This document shows, piece after piece, positions 2,361-16,258 of a stretch of 42,918 bases of DNA. The position numbers were made by a program, and so were the translations under genes. Numbering within the stretch: position 1 is the stretch's first letter; each line of letters begins with the position of its first letter. The stretch comes from Oscillospiraceae bacterium (lineage in GTDB: Bacteria; Bacillota; Clostridia; Oscillospirales; Oscillospiraceae), in NCBI GenBank assembly GCA_009787995.1, contig WQSH01000009.1, positions 1 to 42,918 on the forward strand, given 5' to 3'. Under the pieces are notes generated by a model that was given only the letters and a program-made list of their open reading frames with translations, did not search any database and was not told the origin of the DNA.

Positions 2361-2389
2361 CTGCAATAACCGTTTAGGAGTGATTGAAT

Positions 2390-3373
2390 TTGTTACGCAG
2401 GCAGTGGAAACGCATTACCATCATTGTGATGTTTGTTTTTTTGGCGCTACTGTCACTGGAAATCGGCCCTTTGAGCGATGTTAGCCTCAGCTCATTTATA
2501 TATGGGGATGAGGTTGCACGGCTTGTGTTCCTGCACAGCAGGGTGCCCCGCACTGCCGCCGTCATACTTTCGGCAGCGAGCCTTTCTGTTGCGGGGCTCC
2601 TGATGCAGTCTATCAGCCGCAATAAATTTATGTCGCCGACTACGGCGGGCACTACTGATGCCGCCGCTTTCGGGCTGCTCATTTCGTTTATTTTCCTCGG
2701 GCACAGGTCGGGGGTCGTGCAGGCTTCCTTTGCCTTTGCCTTTGCACTACTCGCCACCATGTTGTTCACCTCGGTAATAAATAAGCTCAAAATCCGCGAG
2801 GTTGTCTATATACCGCTGATTGGTATGATGTATGGCGGGCTTATCGGCGCAATTTCGGCTGCCGTAGCCTTTAGGTTCGAGGCTATGCAGGTTATGCAGG
2901 CGTTTAATTTGGGGAGCTTTGCCCGGCTGGGAAATTTCACCCTTGTTTATATTGTCCTTATCCCGCTGTTCTTTTCGGTGCTCTTTGCCACAAAGTTCAG
3001 CATAATCGGGCTGGGGCAGGATTTTGCGAAAAATTTGGGTGTCAACTACAACAGGGTTGTGTTTTTGGGCTTGATTATCGTTGCGCTTATTAGCGCCTCG
3101 ACCTTTGTCGCTGTCGGCCCGCTGCCGTTTATTGGCCTTATTATCCCGAACATGGCGACTTCGTTTTACGGCGACAACCTCAAGAAGTCAATTTTTGACC
3201 TGATGATATTCGGGGCCAACTTCGTCCTCCTGTGCGATATAGTGAGCCGCTTGGTGATTTTCCCATTCGAGATGAATGTCAGCGTCACCATCAGCGTCGT
3301 CGGCGGGATTGTCTTCATGATTTATCTTATAAGGGGGATGCACAGTGGAAAAAATCGCAAAGCTGCGGCATAA
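2390..3373 (+). CDS. FecCD-family siderophore ABC permease (YclN/CeuB-like)
   Basis: First membrane subunit of a metal-chelate importer. The protein has about nine hydrophobic segments and the FecCD family motif region SRVPRTAAVILSAASLSVAG, followed by LMQSISRNKFMSPTTAGTTD, which contacts the ATPase and lines the path. The order permease-permease-ATPase-lipoprotein downstream is that of the petrobactin/catecholate importers YclNOPQ and CeuBCDE. Start: TTG at 2390 lies 9 nt after the SD AGGAG; a second TTG at 2384 is only 3 nt after it, so I prefer 2390. Regulation is probably by the three operators just upstream. Family call secure; the exact siderophore is unknown. Confidence 0.88.
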   Translation: MLRRQWKRITIIVMFVFLALLSLEIGPLSDVSLSSFIYGDEVARLVFLHSRVPRTAAVILSAASLSVAGLLMQSISRNKFMSPTTAGTTDAAAFGLLISFIFLGHRSGVVQASFAFAFALLATMLFTSVINKLKIREVVYIPLIGMMYGGLIGAISAAVAFRFEAMQVMQAFNLGSFARLGNFTLVYIVLIPLFFSVLFATKFSIIGLGQDFAKNLGVNYNRVVFLGLIIVALISASTFVAVGPLPFIGLIIPNMATSFYGDNLKKSIFDLMIFGANFVLLCDIVSRLVIFPFEMNVSVTISVVGGIVFMIYLIRGMHSGKNRKAAA

Positions 3374-4415
3374 GTTCTTGGAGTTTGCGGGGCAGTCAGG
3401 TTACGCCCCTACCATAAAGCATTCAGGGAGCGGCAAGCGTGCGGTAGTCGTTATAATTATCCTTCTCGTGCTGATTGCGGCGGCGTCCGCCTTGTACATC
3501 TATTCTCGCACATATGCCAAGGCGTTCCGGCTCGGGGTGCCTATGACGCCGCAGGCTTTTGACAGCATATTGTCCCGCACGATACCGCATCTATACGGCA
3601 TGGGAGCCGCAGCGGTCGTCCTTGCTGTCGTGAGCCTTTCGTTTCAGACGATTACGCAGAGCAGGGTGCTGACCCCGTCGATGATTGGTTTCGATTCGGT
3701 TTTTGTAGGGACTCAGACAGTACTTGTGTTCTTCTTTGGCGCACAGCATTTCCTGTTTGCCGACCCTTTCATCAACTACCTCATAACAGCAGGCATCATG
3801 GTCGTGGTTTCTATGCTGATGTTCGGAGCCATTTTGCGCAACCACAGGAACAACATAGTGTTCCTTCTCATGTTTGGTTTGGTTCTGTCCGGGATTGTCG
3901 GGAGCGGGACTAGCTACTTGCAGATTATCATGAACGAGAGCGATTTCTTCCAGGTTGCGGCGGCCACTGCTGTAAATGTAAATAACATGAACGTCGGCAT
4001 CATCAACCTCGCCCTTCCGATAATGGCAGCCGTCGTGGCGCTGACATTGTGGCGGCACAGGCGTTATAACGTGATGACGCTGGGGCCGCAGCAGGCAAAG
4101 GGCTTGGGCGTTGCATATGAAAAGGAGCTAAAGTGGAACCTAATACTGATTGCTGTCGGCATGAGCGTCGCGACAGCCATGATTGGCTCGCTGACCTTCC
4201 TGGGGCTGCTTGCCGTAAATGCTGCGCGCGAGGTACTGAAAACGTACAAGCACCTGCCGCTCTTCATCGGTTCGGCGCTAATGGCGGCTTTAACCTTGAT
4301 ACTTGGGCAGAGCGTGATGGAGCTTCTGCAAGGGGCGATTCCGGTCACGGCGATTATTAACTTGGTGGGCTGCTCATATATTTTCTTTCTGATACTAAAG
4401 GAGAACCGGATATGA
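3345..4415 (+). CDS. FecCD-family siderophore ABC permease (YclO/CeuC-like)
   Basis: Second permease of the importer, 356 residues. After a basic N-terminal stretch (about 30 residues) it shows the usual set of hydrophobic helices and the paired FecCD features, for example VLTPSMIGFDSVFVGTQT near residues 110-130 and GPQQAKGLGV near 245. The GTG start at 3345 overlaps the previous gene by 29 nt and is preceded by AAGGGGG at a good distance, so the two are translationally coupled. It would pair with the first permease to form the channel fed by the lipoprotein encoded at 5213-6364. Confidence 0.88.
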   Translation: MEKIAKLRHKFLEFAGQSGYAPTIKHSGSGKRAVVVIIILLVLIAAASALYIYSRTYAKAFRLGVPMTPQAFDSILSRTIPHLYGMGAAAVVLAVVSLSFQTITQSRVLTPSMIGFDSVFVGTQTVLVFFFGAQHFLFADPFINYLITAGIMVVVSMLMFGAILRNHRNNIVFLLMFGLVLSGIVGSGTSYLQIIMNESDFFQVAAATAVNVNNMNVGIINLALPIMAAVVALTLWRHRRYNVMTLGPQQAKGLGVAYEKELKWNLILIAVGMSVATAMIGSLTFLGLLAVNAAREVLKTYKHLPLFIGSALMAALTLILGQSVMELLQGAIPVTAIINLVGCSYIFFLILKENRI

Positions 4416-5179
4416 TTGAAGTAAGAAGCGTAAGCCAGTCATACAGCCGCGACAAGGAGATACTGAAGGAAGTGGACCTTGTCGTAAGGGAGAGGGAGAT
4501 AACTGCGCTCGTTGGGGCGAATGGGGCAGGGAAGTCAACGCTCCTTGGGGTTATGACGAACCTTCTGCCCGCAAAAAAGGGCGTTGTGATGCTAGATGGT
4601 GTGGATATACGCAAAATCAAAACAAATGAAGTCGCAAAAAAAATTGCTTTCCTGAAGCAAACGCAGCAACTCAGCATACGGATAACTGTCAAGGACCTCG
4701 TAGAGTTCGGTAGATTCCCGCATTGCGGCGGCAGGCTCAGGGACGAGGACAGGGAAAAGGTTGAAGAAGCTATTTACTATATGAAGCTCGAAGACCTGCA
4801 GGAGAGTTATTTGGACGAGATTTCCGGAGGGCAGAGGCAGCGGGCATTCATAGCCATGATTTTGGCTCAGGACACGCCATATATTTTCCTTGACGAGCCG
4901 CTAAACAATCTGGACATCAAGTATTCGGTCGAAATGATGAAGATTGTCACAAAATTGGTCGAAGACCTCGGCAAAACTATTGTCGTGGTTCTGCATGACA
5001 TAAATTTTGCAGCAGCCTATGCGAGCCACATAGTAGCGATGAAGGATGGTCAGGTAATAAAAGAGGGAAGCCCGAAGGAGGTGATTACGCCGAGTGTATT
5101 AAACCCCGTGTTTGACCACGATTTCCACATAGTTGACCACGATGGCAGAAGCGTCTGCCTTTATTATGACCATGAGTAG
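4412..5179 (+). CDS. Siderophore importer ATPase (YclP/CeuD-like)
   Basis: ATP-hydrolysing subunit of the importer, 255 residues. Walker A is GANGAGKST (about residues 35-43), the signature is ISGGQRQR, Walker B is YIFLDEP with a D-loop NNLD, and the switch His is in VVLHDINFA. Its ATG overlaps the stop of the second permease (ATGA), as expected for an obligate complex. The length and motifs match FepC/YclP-type subunits. Confidence 0.92.
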   Translation: MIEVRSVSQSYSRDKEILKEVDLVVREREITALVGANGAGKSTLLGVMTNLLPAKKGVVMLDGVDIRKIKTNEVAKKIAFLKQTQQLSIRITVKDLVEFGRFPHCGGRLRDEDREKVEEAIYYMKLEDLQESYLDEISGGQRQRAFIAMILAQDTPYIFLDEPLNNLDIKYSVEMMKIVTKLVEDLGKTIVVVLHDINFAAAYASHIVAMKDGQVIKEGSPKEVITPSVLNPVFDHDFHIVDHDGRSVCLYYDHE

Positions 5180-5212
5180 AAAAATAAAAGTAAAACAAAA
5201 GGAGAAAGAAAA

Positions 5213-6364
5213 ATGAAAAAAGCGATTTTAACTCTAGCATTAGCAGCGATGATGATTTTAGCCCTCGCAGCGTGTGGAGGCACGCAGCCGGTAGTTGTGA
5301 GTCCCGGATCGCCGCCCGCAGCCGGCCAGCCGGCAGAGACGGGTGCACAGCCCACTGCGGCCTACGATGAAGAAGAGTACGAAGAGGAATATGTCCCAGA
5401 AGGGCCTGTTTATGTGACAATTACTGACTTTAACGACAATGTCGTTCAAGTAAGGCAAAACCCGACCACCGTGGCAATTTATGACCAAGGCATCCTGGAC
5501 ATGCTCTATTCAGTGGGATTTGAAAGGACGGGCATAGAGAGGCTTATTGTCCCTTCTCCCGACACCATGCCAGACGTTCTAAGCTGGTTTAGGGACGATG
5601 GTGGGGAAGTCACAATCGTCAACGGCGGCACGCTCTTTTACGTGGACTGGGACGTGCTTGACCTTATGGTGCCGGAACTTGTCATACTCGGTGCCCGCTC
5701 GTTTGGCATGAACGCCGCCGGCGACCGCTTGGCCGCTGAGGATGTCGACCAGTTCAGGGCTGATACGGAAGCGAGATACTCCGAGACTTCTTTTATAAGG
5801 CTGACGATTAATGCGCGCAATTCGGACTTGCTCAATGACATGAGGAACAATGCATATGCGCTTGCCCAGATTTTCCCTGCAATCGGCGACGACCTCATGG
5901 AGGAAATCGCAAGCATCGAAAGAGAGATGGCGGCGATAGCCGAGGCGACGTCAAACAGCGGCCTTAGCACCGTATTCGTTATGATGACCACCCCGACGAC
6001 ATTCTCAGTGTTTTTGGAAAACAGCCGTTTTGACATGATGTATGAGGAGTTCGGCTTCATCCCGCTGGAAATGGATTTGGAACTATGGACTGACCAGCAC
6101 GGATTTGATGCACAGTCTGAGTTTCTGCTTGAGCAAAACCCTGATGTAATCTTCCTGCTAGACAGGACTGAGCCCGCCACGGGGCTGGGCGCAGCTACCG
6201 AGAATTTCATGAACGACCCAATAATCGCAAGAACAAGCGCCGCAGTTAATGGGCATATCTACAGCGGCCTTCCGATGGCAGAGTGGTATACCGTCGTTGG
6301 CGGCATCCAGTCGGCGTGGCGGATGATAGAGGACGTAAACCGTTTTGTCAGCAGCATTAGCTAG
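5213..6364 (+). CDS. Siderophore-binding lipoprotein (YclQ/FatB-like)
   Basis: Extracellular substrate-binding lipoprotein of the importer, 383 residues. It has a signal peptide with lipobox LAAC (Cys about residue 21), then a Pro/Glu-rich linker (DEEEYEEEYVPEGP) of about 40 residues before the periplasmic-binding fold typical of class III metal-chelate receptors (VTITDFNDNVVQVRQNPTTV near the start, and a C-terminal PDVIFLLDRT strand). SD AAAGGAG lies upstream of the ATG after a 33-nt gap. It is the last gene of the operon, followed by a terminator. Ligand class is inferred from gene order only. Confidence 0.88.
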   Translation: MKKAILTLALAAMMILALAACGGTQPVVVSPGSPPAAGQPAETGAQPTAAYDEEEYEEEYVPEGPVYVTITDFNDNVVQVRQNPTTVAIYDQGILDMLYSVGFERTGIERLIVPSPDTMPDVLSWFRDDGGEVTIVNGGTLFYVDWDVLDLMVPELVILGARSFGMNAAGDRLAAEDVDQFRADTEARYSETSFIRLTINARNSDLLNDMRNNAYALAQIFPAIGDDLMEEIASIEREMAAIAEATSNSGLSTVFVMMTTPTTFSVFLENSRFDMMYEEFGFIPLEMDLELWTDQHGFDAQSEFLLEQNPDVIFLLDRTEPATGLGAATENFMNDPIIARTSAAVNGHIYSGLPMAEWYTVVGGIQSAWRMIEDVNRFVSSIS

Positions 6365-6478: not shown

Positions 6479-7432
6479 TTAAAACTCTGCGCTCCTTAAA
6501 AATTTTCGCACACCGTCGACATTAAACCCTCTGCCTGTCTCAGTTGCTGACGCCGTATCTCGCGGACTTACGCCGTATTCGGCGTACAATTGATTCACAC
6601 CTGCTAAGAGTGGCATCTTCATTGGCTCGTGCACACACATCGACTTGCTCGGGTTTGTGACGAGCCTCGTAACTGCCGCAATTTTCGTAAGCTCCAATTC
6701 AGACAACGATTCTGTCCCCTCAAACGCAGTTCCTTTCACACCCACTCGCCCCATGATCGCCATGATGTTTACGCCGTATTCCCTAGCTCGTATCATCTCA
6801 CGTGCGATTTCATCATACGTGTGTTCGCGCCCGATAGGCTCGACGCAATAGTACAACTCAAGTCCTGCGGATTTTATTGCGTCAAGCGTTTTGAGCCTTG
6901 TCGATTGGGGTATATCCGTATCCTCACCCTCGCGCAGGCGCAGTACATGGTACGCACCGGAAAACCCTGCGGACTTTAACCTCGCAGCATATACTTCATC
7001 AAAATCGCCGATATTTGCGACAAACTGCACACTTGGCGGCACACATTCTCTGACGTCTTTGCCAATCCGTAGGAATTCCTCTTTGTCAAAGTCGTCGGTC
7101 GTCATCAAAAACAGTGCGTCAATCCCTTGTGCCACAACATCATGCGCTTCGGCAGCGACTTGTTCGGCACTCTTCGCAAATTGCGCGTCAACCACAAAAC
7201 TGTCCTGCGCAAGCGAACAGAATTTGCAATTGCGCTCACATGGAGCAGCGTTTATACCGATTTGCGCAAAAACGTAACCTTCCTTGCGGTATTGCTCGCG
7301 CGATAAGGCGTTTGCCTTTGATATCAGCGTATAAAACTCTGCGGATGTGTTGCTGATATTCAGCAACTCGACTGCGTCTTCCTGTGACAGTTCCGCACCG
7401 TCACTGGCTTTTTCCCAGATTTTTTCAAGCAT
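6479..7432 (-). CDS. BioB/HydE/PylB-like radical SAM enzyme
   Basis: A 317-residue radical S-adenosylmethionine enzyme. The [4Fe-4S] motif is CERNCKFC (Cys 65, 69, 72), followed by a TIM barrel whose overall order resembles biotin synthase, HydE and methylornithine synthase. By eye only one of the three [2Fe-2S] cysteines of biotin synthase has a counterpart (in LELYYCVEPIG), so it is probably not a biotin synthase. It is on the same strand as the MFS gene and the nitrogenase-like operon upstream, and may supply a cofactor or modified substrate to that system, but the MFS gene and a repeat lie between. Start: ATG with GGGAGA about 11 nt before it. Confidence 0.75.
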   Translation of the reverse strand: MLEKIWEKASDGAELSQEDAVELLNISNTSAEFYTLISKANALSREQYRKEGYVFAQIGINAAPCERNCKFCSLAQDSFVVDAQFAKSAEQVAAEAHDVVAQGIDALFLMTTDDFDKEEFLRIGKDVRECVPPSVQFVANIGDFDEVYAARLKSAGFSGAYHVLRLREGEDTDIPQSTRLKTLDAIKSAGLELYYCVEPIGREHTYDEIAREMIRAREYGVNIMAIMGRVGVKGTAFEGTESLSELELTKIAAVTRLVTNPSKSMCVHEPMKMPLLAGVNQLYAEYGVSPRDTASATETGRGFNVDGVRKFLRSAEF

Positions 7433-9027: not shown

Positions 9028-10272
9028 CTATTTGTTTGTGCTGGTCACTGGTCTTGCCATAAATCTCTCTACCAGTTCCAGCAGCATATCCGCCCCGCGT
9101 TCGCCCATGATTGGCAAATGGGTTGCTACTTGCGGGTGTTTCGAGAATGGAAAACTGACACAGACGCCCATATTGTCTTTTGGAGCCACGTGCATAGACA
9201 CATCGTCAGCCAGCAACAGATGGTTATTTATACTTTTTAAGAACATCAGCCTTTCCTTTTCAGTTTCAAAGTAAGTTATGCCTTCGGCCTTGTGCGTCAC
9301 ATCTTTTAAACCGTGGCTGCAAATCATGTTGACGTGCGTGATGCCAGCTTCTTTTAGGAATGCGGAAATGCCTCGCAACAAATCGTAGTCACCCACAATA
9401 GTGGCATTGAATTGGCGTATGCCTCCCATCATGCCCGGCATAAGGTTTTGCCTTGACTCTTGGTCTTTTTGTGCCAGGGTTTCTTCCACAATCTCGTTTA
9501 TGTCCACCCCCAAAGCCACGCCGATTTCTTTCAGCCATGATAATGTTCCGCTGTATCCATATGGCGATCCGTAAACAAAAGGAGTTCCAAATCTATCCTT
9601 TAAAATTTCAGCGCATGGGATGGCCTCAGTTCTTAATGCCACATTTAGTGATGCGCCGCTCATTTGCTGTATCTCTTTTACAGGCGTCTCAAGCCCTAAG
9701 CACACGCCGACACGCAAACCAAAGGCACGGTTGAACAAATCTTTAAGCTCCCACACATCAGAGGTTATTCGATAGCTGCCGGCGGATGCCCCTAGGATAT
9801 TGATTGTCTGCTGTTGTTGCGCACCGTCCACAGGAAGTTGGGAAACGATAGTTTTATATGCTTCACACAGGCCTGTTGCATAGTCTCCCCGCAGACCGCC
9901 CTCACCAACCGAAATGACGTGTGCAGACACTTTTTCCTGTATATGTTTGCAAACGCCATGTATATCTGTGCCGATAACGGATGTAACGCCGGATTCCATA
10001 ACGAAAATAACTTTTGGCTTGAAGCTGGCGTCTAACTCGACAATAGCGTTTTCCAAACGGCTAACGTCGCCCATCACCACATCATCTTCGCTGATGTGCG
10101 TAGTAAACAGCCTGTTTTCATTAGATAGTCCCATGGAGCCAAAAAGCCCCATGCTGTAATGGGTAGTCCCTGCCGGACCATATTCCAAAACTATGGCGTC
10201 CTTTACGCTCATAAGTGTCCACATGACTGCCATGCGGTGCGATGGCGCCGGTAAAAAACGATATAAGCTCAT
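9028..10272 (-). CDS. Nitrogenase component 1-like protein, NifK/BchB-type subunit
   Basis: A 414-residue member of the nitrogenase component 1 family (oxidoreductase/nitrogenase PF00148). Family landmarks: EYGPAGTTHYS (the second-cysteine region), EDDVVMGDVSRLENAI (NifK-type), ESGVTSVIGTDIHGV (third-cysteine region) and VGEGGLRGDYATG. All three P-cluster cysteine positions of NifK are replaced, by eye with Ser/His near 11-12, Thr near 36 and Gly near 95, so this subunit cannot hold a nitrogenase P-cluster. The pattern resembles protochlorophyllide reductase BchB, which gives one non-Cys ligand. Its ATG overlaps the NifD-like stop (TAATG), implying a 1:1 complex. It is the last gene of the operon. 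It is not a true nitrogenase subunit; substrate unknown. Confidence 0.85.
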   Translation of the reverse strand: MSLYRFLPAPSHRMAVMWTLMSVKDAIVLEYGPAGTTHYSMGLFGSMGLSNENRLFTTHISEDDVVMGDVSRLENAIVELDASFKPKVIFVMESGVTSVIGTDIHGVCKHIQEKVSAHVISVGEGGLRGDYATGLCEAYKTIVSQLPVDGAQQQQTINILGASAGSYRITSDVWELKDLFNRAFGLRVGVCLGLETPVKEIQQMSGASLNVALRTEAIPCAEILKDRFGTPFVYGSPYGYSGTLSWLKEIGVALGVDINEIVEETLAQKDQESRQNLMPGMMGGIRQFNATIVGDYDLLRGISAFLKEAGITHVNMICSHGLKDVTHKAEGITYFETEKERLMFLKSINNHLLLADDVSMHVAPKDNMGVCVSFPFSKHPQVATHLPIMGERGADMLLELVERFMARPVTSTNK

Positions 10273-11564
10273 TAACTTGCCCTCTCTTTCTCAAGTTCCT
10301 TTGCCTCAGCAGCAGCACGAGTTAGCTCGCTCAATACAACTTGAGTCACCTCGAAGCCGAGCATTGCGGACGCCTGGTCGGTACGCACCAGCGAAATTCC
10401 TTTTTGCCGCAAGCGCAGGGCATATTCATGCCCCAAATACAAATGCGGTTTCATTTCATCATACACATATTGCAGCGGAGCTATATTAGCAGATTTAACT
10501 ACATAGGGATCGCTATTTTCCAGTATGTAGTCTAAATATTCATGTGGCTTTTCAGGCAACTCCACTGTTTGGATTAGCTGAGGAATCATGCCCATGCTCA
10601 CCATAAATGCGTTAAATTCGTAGGTGGGCAGGGGAGTGTTGCCATAGATGTACCGTACATTTTTAAGGCTTGGTTTTGCGTCGCCGACTGTCTCTACGGC
10701 CTGCTTGTGCAAATCTTCAACTTCACTTGGCAGGCTTGCTTCCAAGTAGCCGAACAACTCAGTATAGGCTTTGAAGATATCCGCTGGTGCGGCAAAACGT
10801 TCAAAACGCACATATGGTGTGCCGAAACTCTCCTTCATGCCTTTTGCAAGCTCCAGAGCGGTTGCATCAACTACTATGTTTACCTTTGCGGAAGCAGCAG
10901 TTTCGATTTGCGAAACTGAGCAGCCGCCCGGCAGAGCCATGCCAACCTCACACCCTGCCTTGGACAGCACCCGAAATAGTTCCGTAGAACTAAAACTGCC
11001 AAAACGCTGCCCCAAAACGTTAATGCCATTGCCTTTTGGCATGTCTTTCATCATGTGCAGGCATGCCGTGACCGCATTTGCAATGCCGGGGATATGGTTT
11101 TCAGATTTGAAATGCTCTGTATGCACGGGAGCAACATGGATGCCGTATTGCTTGCTGAAAGTTTCTGCCATTGCATCTATATCATCGCCAATAATTTCGC
11201 CGAGGCAGGTGCTTATCAAAAATACGGCCTTTGGCGTATATTCTGACATCAGCTCTGCGAAGGCTTCTTCAATTTTTTTGTGGCTGCCAAAGGCTACGTC
11301 GTGGTAATTCATCACCACAGAAAAACATGGGCTGTCCATGCCGCCAAACATGTTGTTCATGGTAGTGGATTTTGTATAATAAGTACATTCTTCTGTTCCC
11401 ACAACCATCATGCAAGCATCCTTAATGCTGCGAACAGCCAGCATCGCCCCCATAAGAGGGCAATGAGGCCCAGGAAAAATAGAATATGTCAACTGCCGTA
11501 TATCTTTTGCGCGTTCAACGTCTCGCAGTTTTTTCATTTGCGAGATTAACTCTTTCCCAATCAT
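10272..11564 (-). CDS. Nitrogenase component 1-like protein, NifD/BchN-type subunit
   Basis: A 430-residue catalytic subunit of a nitrogenase-like reductase. It keeps three N-terminal cysteines: C35 in GPHCPLMGA, C60 in GTEECTYY and C120 in STCLGEIIGDDID, with spacings 25 and 60. These match the cluster ligands of NifD and especially BchN as I recall them. The C-terminal segment has no counterpart of the His that binds FeMo-cofactor in NifD (here LVRTDQASAMLGFE), so a FeMo-type cofactor is unlikely. Start chosen at the internal ATG 11564, with GAAGGAA before it; the longer ORF would run into the ATPase gene. It forms a pair with the next gene and receives electrons from the NifH-like protein encoded at the operon start. 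Substrate unknown. Confidence 0.87.
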   Translation of the reverse strand: MIGKELISQMKKLRDVERAKDIRQLTYSIFPGPHCPLMGAMLAVRSIKDACMMVVGTEECTYYTKSTTMNNMFGGMDSPCFSVVMNYHDVAFGSHKKIEEAFAELMSEYTPKAVFLISTCLGEIIGDDIDAMAETFSKQYGIHVAPVHTEHFKSENHIPGIANAVTACLHMMKDMPKGNGINVLGQRFGSFSSTELFRVLSKAGCEVGMALPGGCSVSQIETAASAKVNIVVDATALELAKGMKESFGTPYVRFERFAAPADIFKAYTELFGYLEASLPSEVEDLHKQAVETVGDAKPSLKNVRYIYGNTPLPTYEFNAFMVSMGMIPQLIQTVELPEKPHEYLDYILENSDPYVVKSANIAPLQYVYDEMKPHLYLGHEYALRLRQKGISLVRTDQASAMLGFEVTQVVLSELTRAAAEAKELEKERAS

Positions 11565-11589: not shown

Positions 11590-12378
11590 TCACGATATAG
11601 TAGGGGCGAACAGCTCATCGTATACAATTATAGGCCTGCCCCCAACATCAACTACTTTTCCGGTTACTCCCCATACGGCTTTGAGCACATCGGGAGTGAT
11701 TACTTCAGAGGGCGTGCCTTCGGCATATTTTTTGCCTTCTTTCATGGCGATAATACGGTCGCTCACTTCCAATGCATGACCGAGGTCGTGCAAAACCATC
11801 ACAACGCCAATGCCTGTTTCACGGTTTAGCCTTTGCACAAGACGCATAGTCTCATATTGGTGCGCCACATCCAAAAACGTAGTCGGCTCATCGAGAAATA
11901 GTATTTCCGGTTGCTGCGCCAACACCGTTGCAATCCACACCCGCTGCCGTTCGCCTCCGGAGATTTGGAAAATGGACTTATCTCGCATTTCAAAAACTCC
12001 GGTGGCGTTCATAGCCCAGTCAATAACTCGCCTATCTTCTTCGCTTAACCCGGACAGCATTTTTTGGTGTGGCATCCGCCCATAGCTAACCAGCTCGCGC
12101 ACGCGAAAATCCGCCGGGGCGGCATGTACTTGCGGCAAAACGCCAATACACCGTGACAGAGCTTTTGGACGGTACTCTTTCAGCAGTTTGCCGCCCAAGT
12201 ACACCGTGCCTTTTTTGTGTGGGATTAGGCGGGTGATAGCCTTTAGCACCGTGGATTTGCCCGAACCGTTTGGCCCTACTATTGTTGTAATCTCCTTTTT
12301 GTTAATGCGTATATCCATTCCATGCACGACCGTGCGCATGTCATAGGCAATGTCTATTGCCTGTGCCTTAAGTTCCAC
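11590..12378 (-). CDS. FecE/BtuD-like importer ATPase in the nitrogenase-like operon
   Basis: ATPase subunit (262 residues) of a metal-chelate or cobalamin-type ABC importer. Walker A GPNGSGKST, signature ISGGERQR, Walker B ILFLDEP followed by TTFLD, and the switch His in VMVLHDLGHA. GTG start at 12378 follows GAGGTAGG and overlaps the permease stop. It sits between the permease and the NifD-like gene, so importer and reductase share a transcript. Confidence 0.92.
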   Translation of the reverse strand: MELKAQAIDIAYDMRTVVHGMDIRINKKEITTIVGPNGSGKSTVLKAITRLIPHKKGTVYLGGKLLKEYRPKALSRCIGVLPQVHAAPADFRVRELVSYGRMPHQKMLSGLSEEDRRVIDWAMNATGVFEMRDKSIFQISGGERQRVWIATVLAQQPEILFLDEPTTFLDVAHQYETMRLVQRLNRETGIGVVMVLHDLGHALEVSDRIIAMKEGKKYAEGTPSEVITPDVLKAVWGVTGKVVDVGGRPIIVYDELFAPTIS

Positions 12379-13414
12379 TAAACCTACCTCGCTTTCTAAG
12401 CATGTACAAAAATGCAGGACCTCCGATAACAGCCATAACTATACCCACAGGGATTTCCATGCCGGGGACAATGCTTCGGCCTACGGTATCCGCAAACAGC
12501 AAAACTGCCGCTCCGAGAAGCATGCTGGTTGGCAGCATAACACGATAATCCGAACCTACCAGCATGCGGGCTACACGAGGCACGACAAGCCCCACAAAAC
12601 CAATCAATCCCACAACTGACACTGTTGCGGCTGCCAAAAATGCAGATACAGCCGATAGCACAATGCGATTAAGATTCACTCTTACTCCCAAATTTTTGCA
12701 CATTTCGTCGCCCAGCTGCAAGGCGTTTGCGCTTTTAATACAAAACAGCGATGCGCCAAGCCCGATGATGCAGTACACAACTACAGTTTGTACATGAACC
12801 CAAGACCGTCCGGATAAGTTTCCGTTCATGAATGCCAGTACACTTGCCAGATTGTCACTATACATCAGCTGCAACAGGCCTGTGTAGCCCCCAAGCACTG
12901 CATTTATCGCCACGCCCGTGAGAATTAGCCGGATGGGGTCGACCCCGCCCTTCCACGCCATGCTGTATATCAACAAGCATGCCAGACCCGCACCGATAAA
13001 AGCAAAAAGTGGAACAGAAAGCGCAAGCGCAGGAAAGAGCAGCAGTATTGTCGTTGCTGCGGTTGCAGCCCCGGCGGAGACCCCGATAATACCGGGATCT
13101 GCCAAGGGGTTTCTCATTACAGCTTGCAATAATGAGCCCGATGTCGCCAGGGCTGCACCGAGTAGCATCGCCAGCAACACCCTCGGCAGGCGCAAGTTGA
13201 GCACAATAACGCTAACAGTGCCCTCCTCCAGGCCAAACAGAGCCCTCAGAACAAGCGCTAGGGGATAGCGGACGCTTCCTATAGCAATTGCCGTTAGCAT
13301 CAGGAACACCAAGACAGCTACTAACACTGTCCACACGAGGCCTGCGCGCAACAAGCTAATGCCTTCCTTTCTCGCCTTGCGCTCGGCTCGCTTATTTTTT
13401 AACACCTCAATCAC
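12368..13414 (-). CDS. FecCD-family permease in the nitrogenase-like operon
   Basis: Membrane subunit of the second importer. It carries the FecCD signatures NLRLPRVLLAMLLGAALATS and MRNPLADPGIIGVSAGAA, and VGLIGFVGLVVPRVAR in the last third, with about ten hydrophobic helices. A single permease gene indicates a homodimeric channel (BtuC-type), unlike the two-permease importer at 2390-4415. I place the start at GTG 13414, which follows GGGAG by 8 nt and overlaps the lipoprotein stop; the ORF track start (13450) would add 12 residues. Substrate inferred only as a metal chelate, haem or corrinoid class compound. Confidence 0.88.
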   Translation of the reverse strand: MIEVLKNKRAERKARKEGISLLRAGLVWTVLVAVLVFLMLTAIAIGSVRYPLALVLRALFGLEEGTVSVIVLNLRLPRVLLAMLLGAALATSGSLLQAVMRNPLADPGIIGVSAGAATAATTILLLFPALALSVPLFAFIGAGLACLLIYSMAWKGGVDPIRLILTGVAINAVLGGYTGLLQLMYSDNLASVLAFMNGNLSGRSWVHVQTVVVYCIIGLGASLFCIKSANALQLGDEMCKNLGVRVNLNRIVLSAVSAFLAAATVSVVGLIGFVGLVVPRVARMLVGSDYRVMLPTSMLLGAAVLLFADTVGRSIVPGMEIPVGIVMAVIGGPAFLYMLRKRGRFSGT

Positions 13415-14468
13415 TCGCTTGTTCTCCCAATAGGCCATCGACAATCTCAATTAATTCATTAAAAATGTCCACAATGGCAATGCCCGCACTGCTAACAAAC
13501 CGCATGGGCAAATAGATTATTCTGCCATCGTAAATCGCCGGGATGCTGTCCCAATAAGACTGATTGTCGGCAAAGCTGGCTTCCATAAAGGCCTGATGCT
13601 CTTCGGCAGTGGGGGCAGAGCCTACTGCGAAAACCCAATCAGGGTCGTAGTACAGTGCCTGCTCGAAATCTATCATAACCAATGAACCCGGCATTTCTGA
13701 CACATTTGTAAACCCAAGCATCTCAAGCATGCTGCCCAAAAGCGCCATGCTTGTTTGAATATGCGAGTTTCCTTGCAAGACCATCACAGTCATGCCAGCG
13801 GCTCTTTCTTGCACGACGGCAAAATAGTTTTCCAAATCATCAAAGGCCTCTTCCATAGCCTGGCCGGCATCAGCATTTTCCTCATTGCCAAAAGCCTCTA
13901 TGAAGTAGGATGTTTGCATACGTATTGAATCATAAGGCACAACATGGCCTGCCATAACAAAATACACAGGTATCCCTAGCATTTGCAGGGTTGCGCCATG
14001 TGTTTCCGCAAGAGTCATTGGCATAACGACCAAATCCGGATCAAGAGAAACCACCATCTCGATGTCAAAATCATCCGCCATTGCAGATGGAAGCCTCGGG
14101 ACATCTAAGGTGTCGGGATATGTAATCAATCCAGTAGTTGGCACAGCCACGATTCCTACCCCCAGATTGTATAGTGTCATTACCGCACCCACAGACATAA
14201 TAGCGACGCGGTTTGGCACAATATCCAGAATAAGCGGATCCGTGAAGCCCATGGATCGCATATCGGCGGGATATTCAAGGACAAATGGTTCGGGCTCAGG
14301 CTCGGGCTCGGGTTCGAGCGCGGGTTCCGGTGACGGCGCCGGGTCCAGTGCCGGTTGCGCCGTTTGCGGTTGTGTTGCAGGAGTTGAGGCGCCGCAAGCC
14401 ACTAGCATGGAAATAGCGACGATTCCAACCACCATTAACGATACTGTTTTTTCTATTGTTTTTTTCAC
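13407..14468 (-). CDS. FecB/BtuF-like substrate-binding lipoprotein
   Basis: Receptor of the second importer, 353 residues. Signal peptide with lipobox LVAC (Cys about 25), then a low-complexity Ala/Pro and Glu-Pro repeat linker (EPEPEPEPEP) of about 35 residues that would hold the domain away from the membrane. The binding domain shows the class III fold features NRVAIMSVGAVMTLYNLG and DPDLVVMPMTLAETHG. GTG start preceded by AAGGAG at 7 nt. It lies directly behind the NifH-like gene, separated by a hairpin. Confidence 0.87.
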   Translation of the reverse strand: MKKTIEKTVSLMVVGIVAISMLVACGASTPATQPQTAQPALDPAPSPEPALEPEPEPEPEPFVLEYPADMRSMGFTDPLILDIVPNRVAIMSVGAVMTLYNLGVGIVAVPTTGLITYPDTLDVPRLPSAMADDFDIEMVVSLDPDLVVMPMTLAETHGATLQMLGIPVYFVMAGHVVPYDSIRMQTSYFIEAFGNEENADAGQAMEEAFDDLENYFAVVQERAAGMTVMVLQGNSHIQTSMALLGSMLEMLGFTNVSEMPGSLVMIDFEQALYYDPDWVFAVGSAPTAEEHQAFMEASFADNQSYWDSIPAIYDGRIIYLPMRFVSSAGIAIVDIFNELIEIVDGLLGEQASD

Positions 14469-14539: not shown

Positions 14540-15325
14540 TCAGACAACAGATCTTTGGATATCGCCTGAAGTTTGGTTAATTATTTTTTCTGCCAAGTCA
14601 AGGTAAATTTGGTGCATGGGCGAGGTTTCAAGTACCTCAAACACTGTTCCGCCTTTTGATTCAGACGCCTGTATATCAGGACAGCGTGGAATGTACTGCA
14701 TAATTTCCGTGCCGATTTCCGGCAGGGCAGCTTTTACGATGTTCTCTTCATCCTCAATATTCTTTGCATTGAGGATAAGTCCGCTGAGCCTGGCATAACT
14801 GCGGCTGCCAAAATTTCGTATCGCCGCTCCAATGTTGCCGGCGGCATACAGGCTCATCATCTCGCCCGAAGATACAATATACACATCCTTTGCGTATCCG
14901 TTTCTGATGGGCATGGCAAAGCCTCCGCAAACAACGTCGCCCAGCACATCATAAATCACTACATCCGGCCTGAGTTCTTCAAAAACATTTAATGTTTCCA
15001 GCTGCTCAAAAGCCGATATTATTCCGCGCCCCGCACAGCCAACGCCGGGGGTAGGTCCGCCGGATTCTACACATAAGATACCCTTGTATCCCGTAAATAC
15101 AATGTCGTCCAGTGTCAGCTCATCGCCTTTTTCCTTTATCTGATCAAGGACGGTGGTGATATTTTCCCCTCCCATCAAGTTCTTTACTGAATCTGCCTTT
15201 GGGTCACAGCCCATTTGCATTACCCGCAAGCCTTTATGCGCCAAAGCCGCTGATAGGTTGCAAGTGGTGGTACTCTTGCCTATTCCTCCTTTGCCATAAA
15301 TTGCTATTTTTCGCATGTTGCGCAA
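14540..15325 (-). CDS. NifH/BchL-like ATP-dependent reductase (nitrogenase-like)
   Basis: A 261-residue iron protein that would pass electrons to the NifD/NifK-like pair with ATP hydrolysis. Seen: P-loop YGKGGIGKST (10-19), switch region MGCDPKADS (38-46), and both [4Fe-4S] ligands, C97 in GVGCAGRG and C133 in DVVCGGFAMP; R100, the ADP-ribosylation site of true NifH, is also present. It is slightly shorter than typical NifH. Start: TTG 15325 lies 6 nt after AAGGGGGG; the ATG at 15316 is 15 nt away and less likely. It is the first gene of an operon with an ABC importer and a NifD/NifK-like pair, under two GTTAG-N6-CTAAC sites. No nifB, nifE, nifN or nifV is seen, which argues against N2 fixation. 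Confidence 0.9.
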   Translation of the reverse strand: MRNMRKIAIYGKGGIGKSTTTCNLSAALAHKGLRVMQMGCDPKADSVKNLMGGENITTVLDQIKEKGDELTLDDIVFTGYKGILCVESGGPTPGVGCAGRGIISAFEQLETLNVFEELRPDVVIYDVLGDVVCGGFAMPIRNGYAKDVYIVSSGEMMSLYAAGNIGAAIRNFGSRSYARLSGLILNAKNIEDEENIVKAALPEIGTEIMQYIPRCPDIQASESKGGTVFEVLETSPMHQIYLDLAEKIINQTSGDIQRSVV

Positions 15326-15467: not shown

Positions 15468-15556
15468 TTTTAGGAAGCATATCATGGATTTGCCGGGATT
15501 ACATTTAATATCTTGCGGCGAATCTCTGATTTCTTGTGGAAGGATGGTATATCGCT

Positions 15557-16258
15557 ATGTTTATGGACTCTGAAGTGATTGAGAAATTGTACGATGTGAG
15601 AGGGATTTGCAATGCCGTTATAGGGCGGGACGTGGATTCGGCCATTCGGTTGTTTGATGAGCAGCTGTCTTTTTTGGCAATCCGTTCTGCCTGTGACATA
15701 GAACTGATGAGTGTGTTTCTAAATTCTTTGGATAGGGGCATATATAATCACATTCTGCAGGCTTTTGGAAATGCCTTGAGCATTTGCTCCCTGAACAAAT
15801 GCTGCCACGAAAATTTTCAAACCATAGGCAGCTGCAGATGCTATGGCTGTTTTAGCTGCGCCGGAAAAGAGATAATTGAAAACTATTTCAAAATTGTGCC
15901 CTTCCAAAGCTGCAAAGGTAATGCATATATCGAGCAGGCGAAGGAATACATCGGAAATAATCTGTCCGAGCCGCTTACATTAAAAGGCGTTGCAGAGAAG
16001 GTTTTCCTCAGCGATACGTACCTTTCACACCTTTTTAGAGAGCTGGCCGGGACTACATTTTCAAGTTTTGTGTTGCAGCAGCGCATTGACAAAGCAAAAA
16101 AACTGCTAGAAGCTACAGAACTGTCAGTTTCCGAAATTGCGGGACAGTGCGGGTTTTCCCAGTCGAATTACTTTTCAACGGTGTTTAAGAAGAGTACAGC
16201 CCATACCCCAAGGGAGTATAGGCTGGCTTTTCGCAAGCACGCAAGCAATAGGCATTGA
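15557..16258 (+). CDS. AraC-family regulator with an N-terminal cysteine cluster
   Basis: A 233-residue transcription regulator. The C-terminal third is a clear AraC double helix-turn-helix (LKGVAEKVFLSDTYLSHLFR, then VSEIAGQCGFSQSNYFSTVF). The N-terminal part is not the usual sugar-binding cupin; it has cysteines at 77, 82, 83 and the tight group C93-C95-C98-C101 (CRCYGCFSC), which suggests binding of a metal or Fe-S cluster. It diverges from the nitrogenase-like operon and probably controls it. Start uncertain: ATG 15557 is about 12 nt after GGAAGGA; GTG 15536 is possible. Its last codons and stop lie inside a 15-bp copy of the dispersed repeat, so the C-terminus may have been remodelled. 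Confidence 0.82.
   Translation: MFMDSEVIEKLYDVRGICNAVIGRDVDSAIRLFDEQLSFLAIRSACDIELMSVFLNSLDRGIYNHILQAFGNALSICSLNKCCHENFQTIGSCRCYGCFSCAGKEIIENYFKIVPFQSCKGNAYIEQAKEYIGNNLSEPLTLKGVAEKVFLSDTYLSHLFRELAGTTFSSFVLQQRIDKAKKLLEATELSVSEIAGQCGFSQSNYFSTVFKKSTAHTPREYRLAFRKHASNRH

Follow-up and report, generated by a model that had tools for sequence, protein, structure and literature searches.

A nitrogenase-like enzyme of a gut bacterium, with relatives in haem-uptake operons, suggests an unrecognised oxygen-free route to haem iron

Introduction

In NifEN, three cysteines of NifE serve a single cubane site, and a cysteine of NifN is the fourth cluster ligand. DPOR (BchL/BchNB) combines a NifH-like reductase with a D2K2-type pair that has three cysteines in its D-type subunit, the fourth cluster ligand being Asp36 of BchB (PMC11423573). 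The isethionate reductase IsrBHDK is a further HDK nitrogenase-like system of anaerobes, encoded with its own transporter; it requires the radical SAM protein IsrB, handles a sulfonate cargo, and has three cysteines in IsrK and one in IsrD (PMC11423573).

Known haem-uptake systems are of other kinds. Anaerobic haem degradation of the HmuTRUVWF/ChuW type involves a haem ABC importer, a FldH/HmuF-type flavodoxin and HugZ, with the ring attacked by a radical SAM methyltransferase (PMC10404700); in Fusobacterium, HmuF both moves haem and acts in the reduction of anaerobilin (PMC10404700). The Cht/Isd-type loci of Clostridium perfringens comprise NEAT proteins, a sortase, an ABC transporter and a Fur box, rely on haem oxygenases and have not been reported to contain HDK genes (PMC5026354).

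Here we analyse an operon of an Oscillospiraceae bacterium that, together with its relatives, can be compared with both sets of systems. Its NifH-like reductase, its D2K2-type pair and the near-identical spacing of its three D cysteines recall DPOR, from which it differs by Thr36 in place of BchB Asp36, by the lack of chlorophyll genes and by its union with a FecCD transporter. Among curated models NifE fits both subunits best, but the fourth-ligand cysteine of NifN is also replaced by Thr36 and no nif genes surround the operon. In contrast to NifDK, VnfDK and AnfDK, no K cysteine occupies any of the three P-cluster sites and the FeMo-co ligands are absent; the K cysteine set of the Isr and Mar enzymes is likewise missing (0/3). 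Compared with the HmuTRUVWF/ChuW systems, HDK would take the place of the radical SAM enzyme, and one relative, in Hathewaya massiliensis, combines a Cht-like layout with HDK genes.

Gene content of the window

The window, that is, the whole stretch of 42,918 nucleotides analysed here, carries on its minus strand, in this order, genes for a NifH-like protein, a substrate-binding lipoprotein, a FecCD permease, a FecE-type ATPase, a D-like and a K-like protein (Table 1). If translation began instead at a TTG codon at 11627, the D-like protein would be 21 residues longer. The NifH-like protein has the cluster motifs GVGCAGRG and VVCGGF, as do 11 of the 11 relatives aligned. The divergently oriented AraC-type regulator is rich in cysteine in the stretch CCHENFQTIGSCRCYGCFSCAGKE, which might act as an iron or redox sensor.

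Table 1 Features of the nitrogenase-like operon and its candidate cluster residues
Feature	Position in window	Strand	Basis
Divergent AraC-type regulator	15536-16258	+	PF12833
NifH-like reductase	14540-15325	-	PF00142, 321 bits
Substrate-binding lipoprotein, distant IsdE (haem) homologue	13407-14468	-	PF01497; TIGR03659 IsdE best match
FecCD-type ABC permease	12368-13450	-	PF01032, 298 bits
FecE-type ABC ATPase	11590-12378	-	Profile matches
D-like (NifD/NifE/BchN-type) subunit, 430 aa	10272-11564	-	PF00148, 209 bits; ATG at 11564
D Cys35 codon, putative cluster ligand 1	11460-11462	-	Cys in 80/80 homologues
D Cys60 codon, putative cluster ligand 2	11385-11387	-	Cys in 80/80 homologues
D Cys120 codon, putative cluster ligand 3	11205-11207	-	Cys in 80/80 homologues
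K-like (NifK/NifN/BchB-type) subunit, 414 aa	9028-10272	-	PF00148, 217 bits
K residue 12 codon, second candidate ligand	10237-10239	-	Conservation among 82 homologues
K Thr36 codon, BchB Asp36/NifN Cys44 fourth-ligand site	10165-10167	-	Thr in 82/82; alignment
K His38 codon, candidate fourth ligand	10159-10161	-	His in 81/82 (Arg in L058)

Both profile (K, 217 bits; D, 209 bits) and fold comparison with Foldseek place the two subunits in the nitrogenase component 1 superfamily (PF00148). All curated family cut-offs lie far above their scores: D and K reach 109 and 127 bits (108.5 and 126.7) with the NifE model, against a cut-off of 505, and 57 and 77 bits with the BchB model, against 490; in their respective DPOR models K scores 77.1 versus 490 bits (TIGR01278) and D 44.6 versus 420 bits (TIGR01279). 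No bch genes were detected among the window genes searched by family or among recurring flank clusters, and comparison with PHROGs gave no match.

Several other genes of the window deserve mention. A second iron-type ABC operon (2384-6364, plus strand) has genes for a FecCD permease and for a catechol binding protein resembling SstD (80 bits), and a URO-D/corrinoid-methyltransferase-like protein (PF01208, 49.8 bits) is encoded at 1129-2148 on the minus strand. A BioB-like radical SAM protein is encoded near the nitrogenase-like operon (6479-7432, minus strand); it is absent as a recurring neighbour in related loci and was dropped as a part of the system.

Relatives and phylogeny

Scanning of GTDB genomes with the D alignment, with the K motif left unused, yielded 80 loci, 77 of them in Bacillota. 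Carriers of the main group belong to Clostridia, Negativicutes, Tissierellia and Dethiobacteria, with two spirochaetes in addition, and Clostridioides difficile (L132, L133) is among them; the D proteins of the relatives are 30-57% identical to that of the window. In a maximum-likelihood tree, the D and K proteins each form one clade apart from Nif, NifEN and Bch, although the position of BchN and BchB is unsure owing to long branches. Each clade has a sister, subgroup B (99% SH-aLRT), comprising six sequences (L055, L056, L057, L059, L061 and L152, the last on the Sporomusa plasmid pSPTER), in which K reads E[FY]GCMGH, that is, Cys33 plus a histidine at site 36. The Sporomusa copy adjoins a TonB siderophore receptor and an esterase.

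The genome of the window also encodes a second nitrogenase-like system, consisting of a NifH-NifD fusion (759 aa) and a K-like protein (G000 contig C93, L062:2616-6150; L063:6606-10167). In a genome of the same genus this fusion system is preceded by a FecCD-type ABC ATPase, a binding protein and a CobN/HmuS-like chelatase (PF02514, 1213 bits), an arrangement that also points to tetrapyrroles.

Three invariant cysteines in the D subunit

The initial annotation had proposed a DPOR-like cluster pattern, with three cysteines in the D-like subunit and none at the equivalent places of the K-like subunit. The homologues bear out this division: D Cys35, Cys60 and Cys120 (spacings 25 and 60) are cysteine in all 80, and none of the three equivalent K sites has a conserved cysteine among 82 K homologues. 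The invariance of Cys35 and Cys60 is partly built in, as both were in the D scan patterns, yet Cys120, which lay outside these patterns, is equally invariant. The remaining D cysteines vary (C80 in 47/80, C168 in 45/80 and C215 in 50/80) or, in the case of C51 and C205, show no conservation; because C35, C60 and C120 are invariant while the others vary, the pattern goes beyond chance. Furthermore, the more distant subgroup B, which was found with K as the query, also retains all three D cysteines.

The AlphaFold model of D (pLDDT 91) has nitrogenase-superfamily chains as its PDB fold matches in Foldseek, and the three cysteines stand where helices 36-44, 58-68 and 120-125 begin, the placement expected of a P-cluster-type cage. 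It is thus very likely that D Cys35, Cys60 and Cys120 hold one cubane, a putative [4Fe-4S]-type site. The FeMo-co ligands Cys275 and His442 are not kept, the window D protein having Asp and Val at these sites, and therefore no large cofactor is expected. With respect to the likeness to DPOR, the spacing is indeed near-identical to that of BchN, but it is equally NifE-like, and NifE provides the best curated model of both subunits. D His34 (79/80), His151 (74/80), His157 (78/80) and Arg187 (78/80) are conserved as well; haem binding and proton donation are possible roles for them.

The fourth cluster position

In the K protein of the window the relevant motif reads G32-P-A-G-T36-T-H38-Y-S. Alignment with reference BchN/BchB and NifDKEN proteins, taken from annotated plasmids, places Thr36 opposite BchB Asp36, NifK Cys95 and NifN Cys44. 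The absence of an aspartate at the BchB Asp36 site, noted at the outset from the window alone, holds across the family, with threonine in 82 of 82 K proteins. Given no conserved K cysteine and no aspartate at this site, the fourth position must be something else, and His38, Thr36, residue 12 or a non-protein ligand are all candidates. Thr37 is conserved in 81/82. At residue 12, adjacent to the position of NifK Cys70, 77 of the 82 proteins have Asp, two have Glu and one (L121) has Cys; His occurs there in this window alone.

His38 had been put forward as the residue that might complete the cluster. It is near-invariant (81/82), and the sister clade carries a histidine at site 36, the exact fourth-ligand site; the ligand role, however, has rivals in Thr36 and residue 12. 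In the AlphaFold model of K (pLDDT 89), a helix starts at His38, two residues beyond Thr36, which itself holds the BchB Asp36 site in every homologue; moreover, L058 has Arg38 with its D cysteines intact, residue 12 is an equal candidate, and Cys108 (77/82) could be an alternative. A 3Cys-1His [4Fe-4S] cluster completed by His38 thus appears doubtful. We regard as a fair possibility, short of a likely one, that the fourth iron site is open, occupied by water, hydroxide or the Thr36 hydroxyl, and binds the substrate or an outside ligand: most of the conserved polar K residues there (Thr36, Thr37 and Ser94) would make poor or unusual ligands, residue 12 and His38 being the exceptions. This reading has to contend with the protein ligand used at the fourth position in both DPOR and NifEN and with the ordinary carboxylate that Asp at residue 12 would offer in 77/82 homologues. 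In the wider family, a His-ligated cluster is a real possibility judging from the residues of the sister clade, which has both His at site 36 and Cys33.

The near-invariant K Cys108 does not lie at the cluster site; it is located on helix 104-114, 13 residues beyond the third site, and from this placement in the model we think that it is not a ligand.

Operon conservation and haem-related neighbours

The conserved operon encodes the NifH-like protein, a substrate-binding protein, the FecCD permease, the ATPase, D and K. Leaving the binding protein out of the count, 66 of the 80 loci have the full set, and in many relatives a divergent AraC-type gene precedes H. The binding proteins match the haem-binding IsdE model in 56 of 58 cases (E <= 1e-5). 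The Hathewaya massiliensis protein (L118) passes the curated IsdE cut-off (357.7 versus 298.65 bits), and nine others stay just short of it, that of C. difficile with 284.9 bits and eight further clostridial ones with 267-290 bits. In the Hathewaya locus, a Shr-like/NEAT surface protein, a NEAT-LPXTG protein, IsdE, permease, ATPase, sortase, H, D and K are all encoded on one strand, and NEAT proteins also adjoin the operon in L119 and L051, with L092 just under the cut-off.

Other neighbours point in the same direction. A HugZ or FldH/HmuF-type flavodoxin gene adjoins 35 of the 80 loci: HugZ-family genes lie beside the operon in seven loci and the flavodoxin in 31 clustered loci. The sole PDB match of the flavodoxin is haem-bound FldH (8G64, 6.8e-13), whose haem ligand His134 is retained in 29 of the 31 proteins. 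The haem-binding protein ChaN is encoded directly after K in two Acidaminococcaceae loci (L080, L084). Eleven relatives, most of them clostridial, have a Fur box upstream of H that matches at 12-14 of 14 positions, against a shuffle mean of about 9.3. Directly 3' of K, CobW-family GTPase-like genes were observed in L116 (12463-15068, Pfam-confirmed) and L079 (3042-5256).

For C. difficile, a published expression table lists a NifH protein (J5O10_08590) and an iron ABC permease (J5O10_08600) (PMC11633334), a spacing of locus tags that would fit the nitrogenase-like operon. Growth of C. difficile on haem under iron limitation has been reported, in work cited in PMC6311696.

Beside the window operon itself, NEAT, HugZ, ChaN and flavodoxin neighbours were absent, no Fur box was found upstream of H, and no FldH-type flavodoxin was found elsewhere in the genome. 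The window binding protein scores 59 bits with IsdE (TIGR03659), far below the cut-off of 298.65. With the HutW/ChuW model, the best protein of the window genome reaches 200 bits versus the 400-bit cut-off, an uninformative result since general radical SAM relatives match in all control genomes. Across the family, the binding proteins share 17-44% identity with that of the window, a diversity such that members may differ in cargo. For the window copy, haem as the cargo would be an extrapolation from relatives, which have 30-57% identity in D and diverge further in their binding proteins.

Proposed function and alternative cargoes

On balance, we consider it rather likely that the locus serves anaerobic iron acquisition, pairing FecCD-type ABC import of an iron porphyrin, most likely haem, with a nitrogenase-like reductase. 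In this scheme, the transporter would import the iron porphyrin and the NifH-like dimer would pass ATP-driven, low-potential electrons to D2K2 via a [4Fe-4S] cluster held by D Cys35, Cys60 and Cys120, with a non-Cys fourth site facing K Thr36, His38 and residue 12 (Asp, or His in the window). By analogy with DPOR, the tetrapyrrole would be reduced in the cavity between D and K where that enzyme binds protochlorophyllide, and reduction of the ring or of the iron would release Fe2+ without O2. In relatives, the FldH/HmuF-type flavodoxin or HugZ-family protein may bring haem in or process the product. We infer the cluster itself, the substrate (most of all for the window copy), the reaction and the product. 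In line with a haem reductase, the K model has its best TM-scores with BchB, which is part of a tetrapyrrole reductase (3aet_B, 0.83/0.82), but NifN comes first by E-value; against haem stands the location of a subgroup B copy beside a siderophore receptor and an esterase.

That latter neighbourhood speaks for a ferric siderophore or another metallophore as the cargo, from which the enzyme would free iron reductively. FecCD-type transporters do carry siderophores, and the second iron-type ABC operon of the window, with its SstD-like binding protein, would fit as well. However, IsdE leads the named iron-compound models, siderophore models match fewer of the binding proteins and more weakly, and the NEAT, HugZ, ChaN and FldH-type neighbours are haem genes, making a siderophore cargo unlikely. 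A cargo of corrinoid or another tetrapyrrole, which the enzyme would remodel instead of releasing iron, we hold to be quite unlikely. BtuF is also matched by 46 of the 58 binding proteins (best 2e-18) and the superfamily does reduce tetrapyrroles (BchNB, CfbD), but no cobalamin riboswitch or other Rfam match was found around the operon in any of six scanned sources, the window included, and both the Fur boxes of clostridial members and the haem-specific neighbour genes speak against it. As for nitrogen fixation or a methylthio-alkane/isethionate-type reaction, membership in the same superfamily and the NifH-like partner would be compatible with such an enzyme, but it lacks the six-Cys P-cluster set and the FeMo-co ligands, its cysteine pattern is the opposite of that of isethionate reductase, in which D has one and K three (PMC11423573), and no conserved radical SAM gene adjoins it; we consider this highly improbable.

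Implications

In the open-access literature searched, we found no paper linking haem with a nitrogenase-like enzyme, and such an enzyme goes unmentioned in a 2025 review of how bacteria degrade haem (PMC12670364). Our analysis, in which the cysteine pattern is conserved across dozens of related bacteria (80 D and 82 K homologues), suggests that a nitrogenase relative of a gut bacterium, with kin in haem-uptake operons, represents an unrecognised oxygen-free route to haem iron. More broadly, we tentatively propose, as a reading that has about as much against it as for it, that a widespread nitrogenase-like clade in Bacillota of gut and soil, C. difficile included, dismantles haem or strips its iron by an ATP-driven reaction without oxygen or radical SAM chemistry, via a [4Fe-4S] cluster whose fourth ligand would be neither Cys nor the Asp36 of DPOR, and possibly His. 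The family also constitutes a natural experiment on which fourth ligands (Cys, Asp, Thr, His) this cluster site tolerates. The question bears on how haem iron is obtained by strict anaerobes that have neither haem oxygenase nor a radical SAM enzyme of the ChuW/HmuW type. If the proposal is true, the nitrogenase superfamily would gain a substrate and a physiological role, and there would be a concrete candidate for haem-iron acquisition in common gut bacteria.
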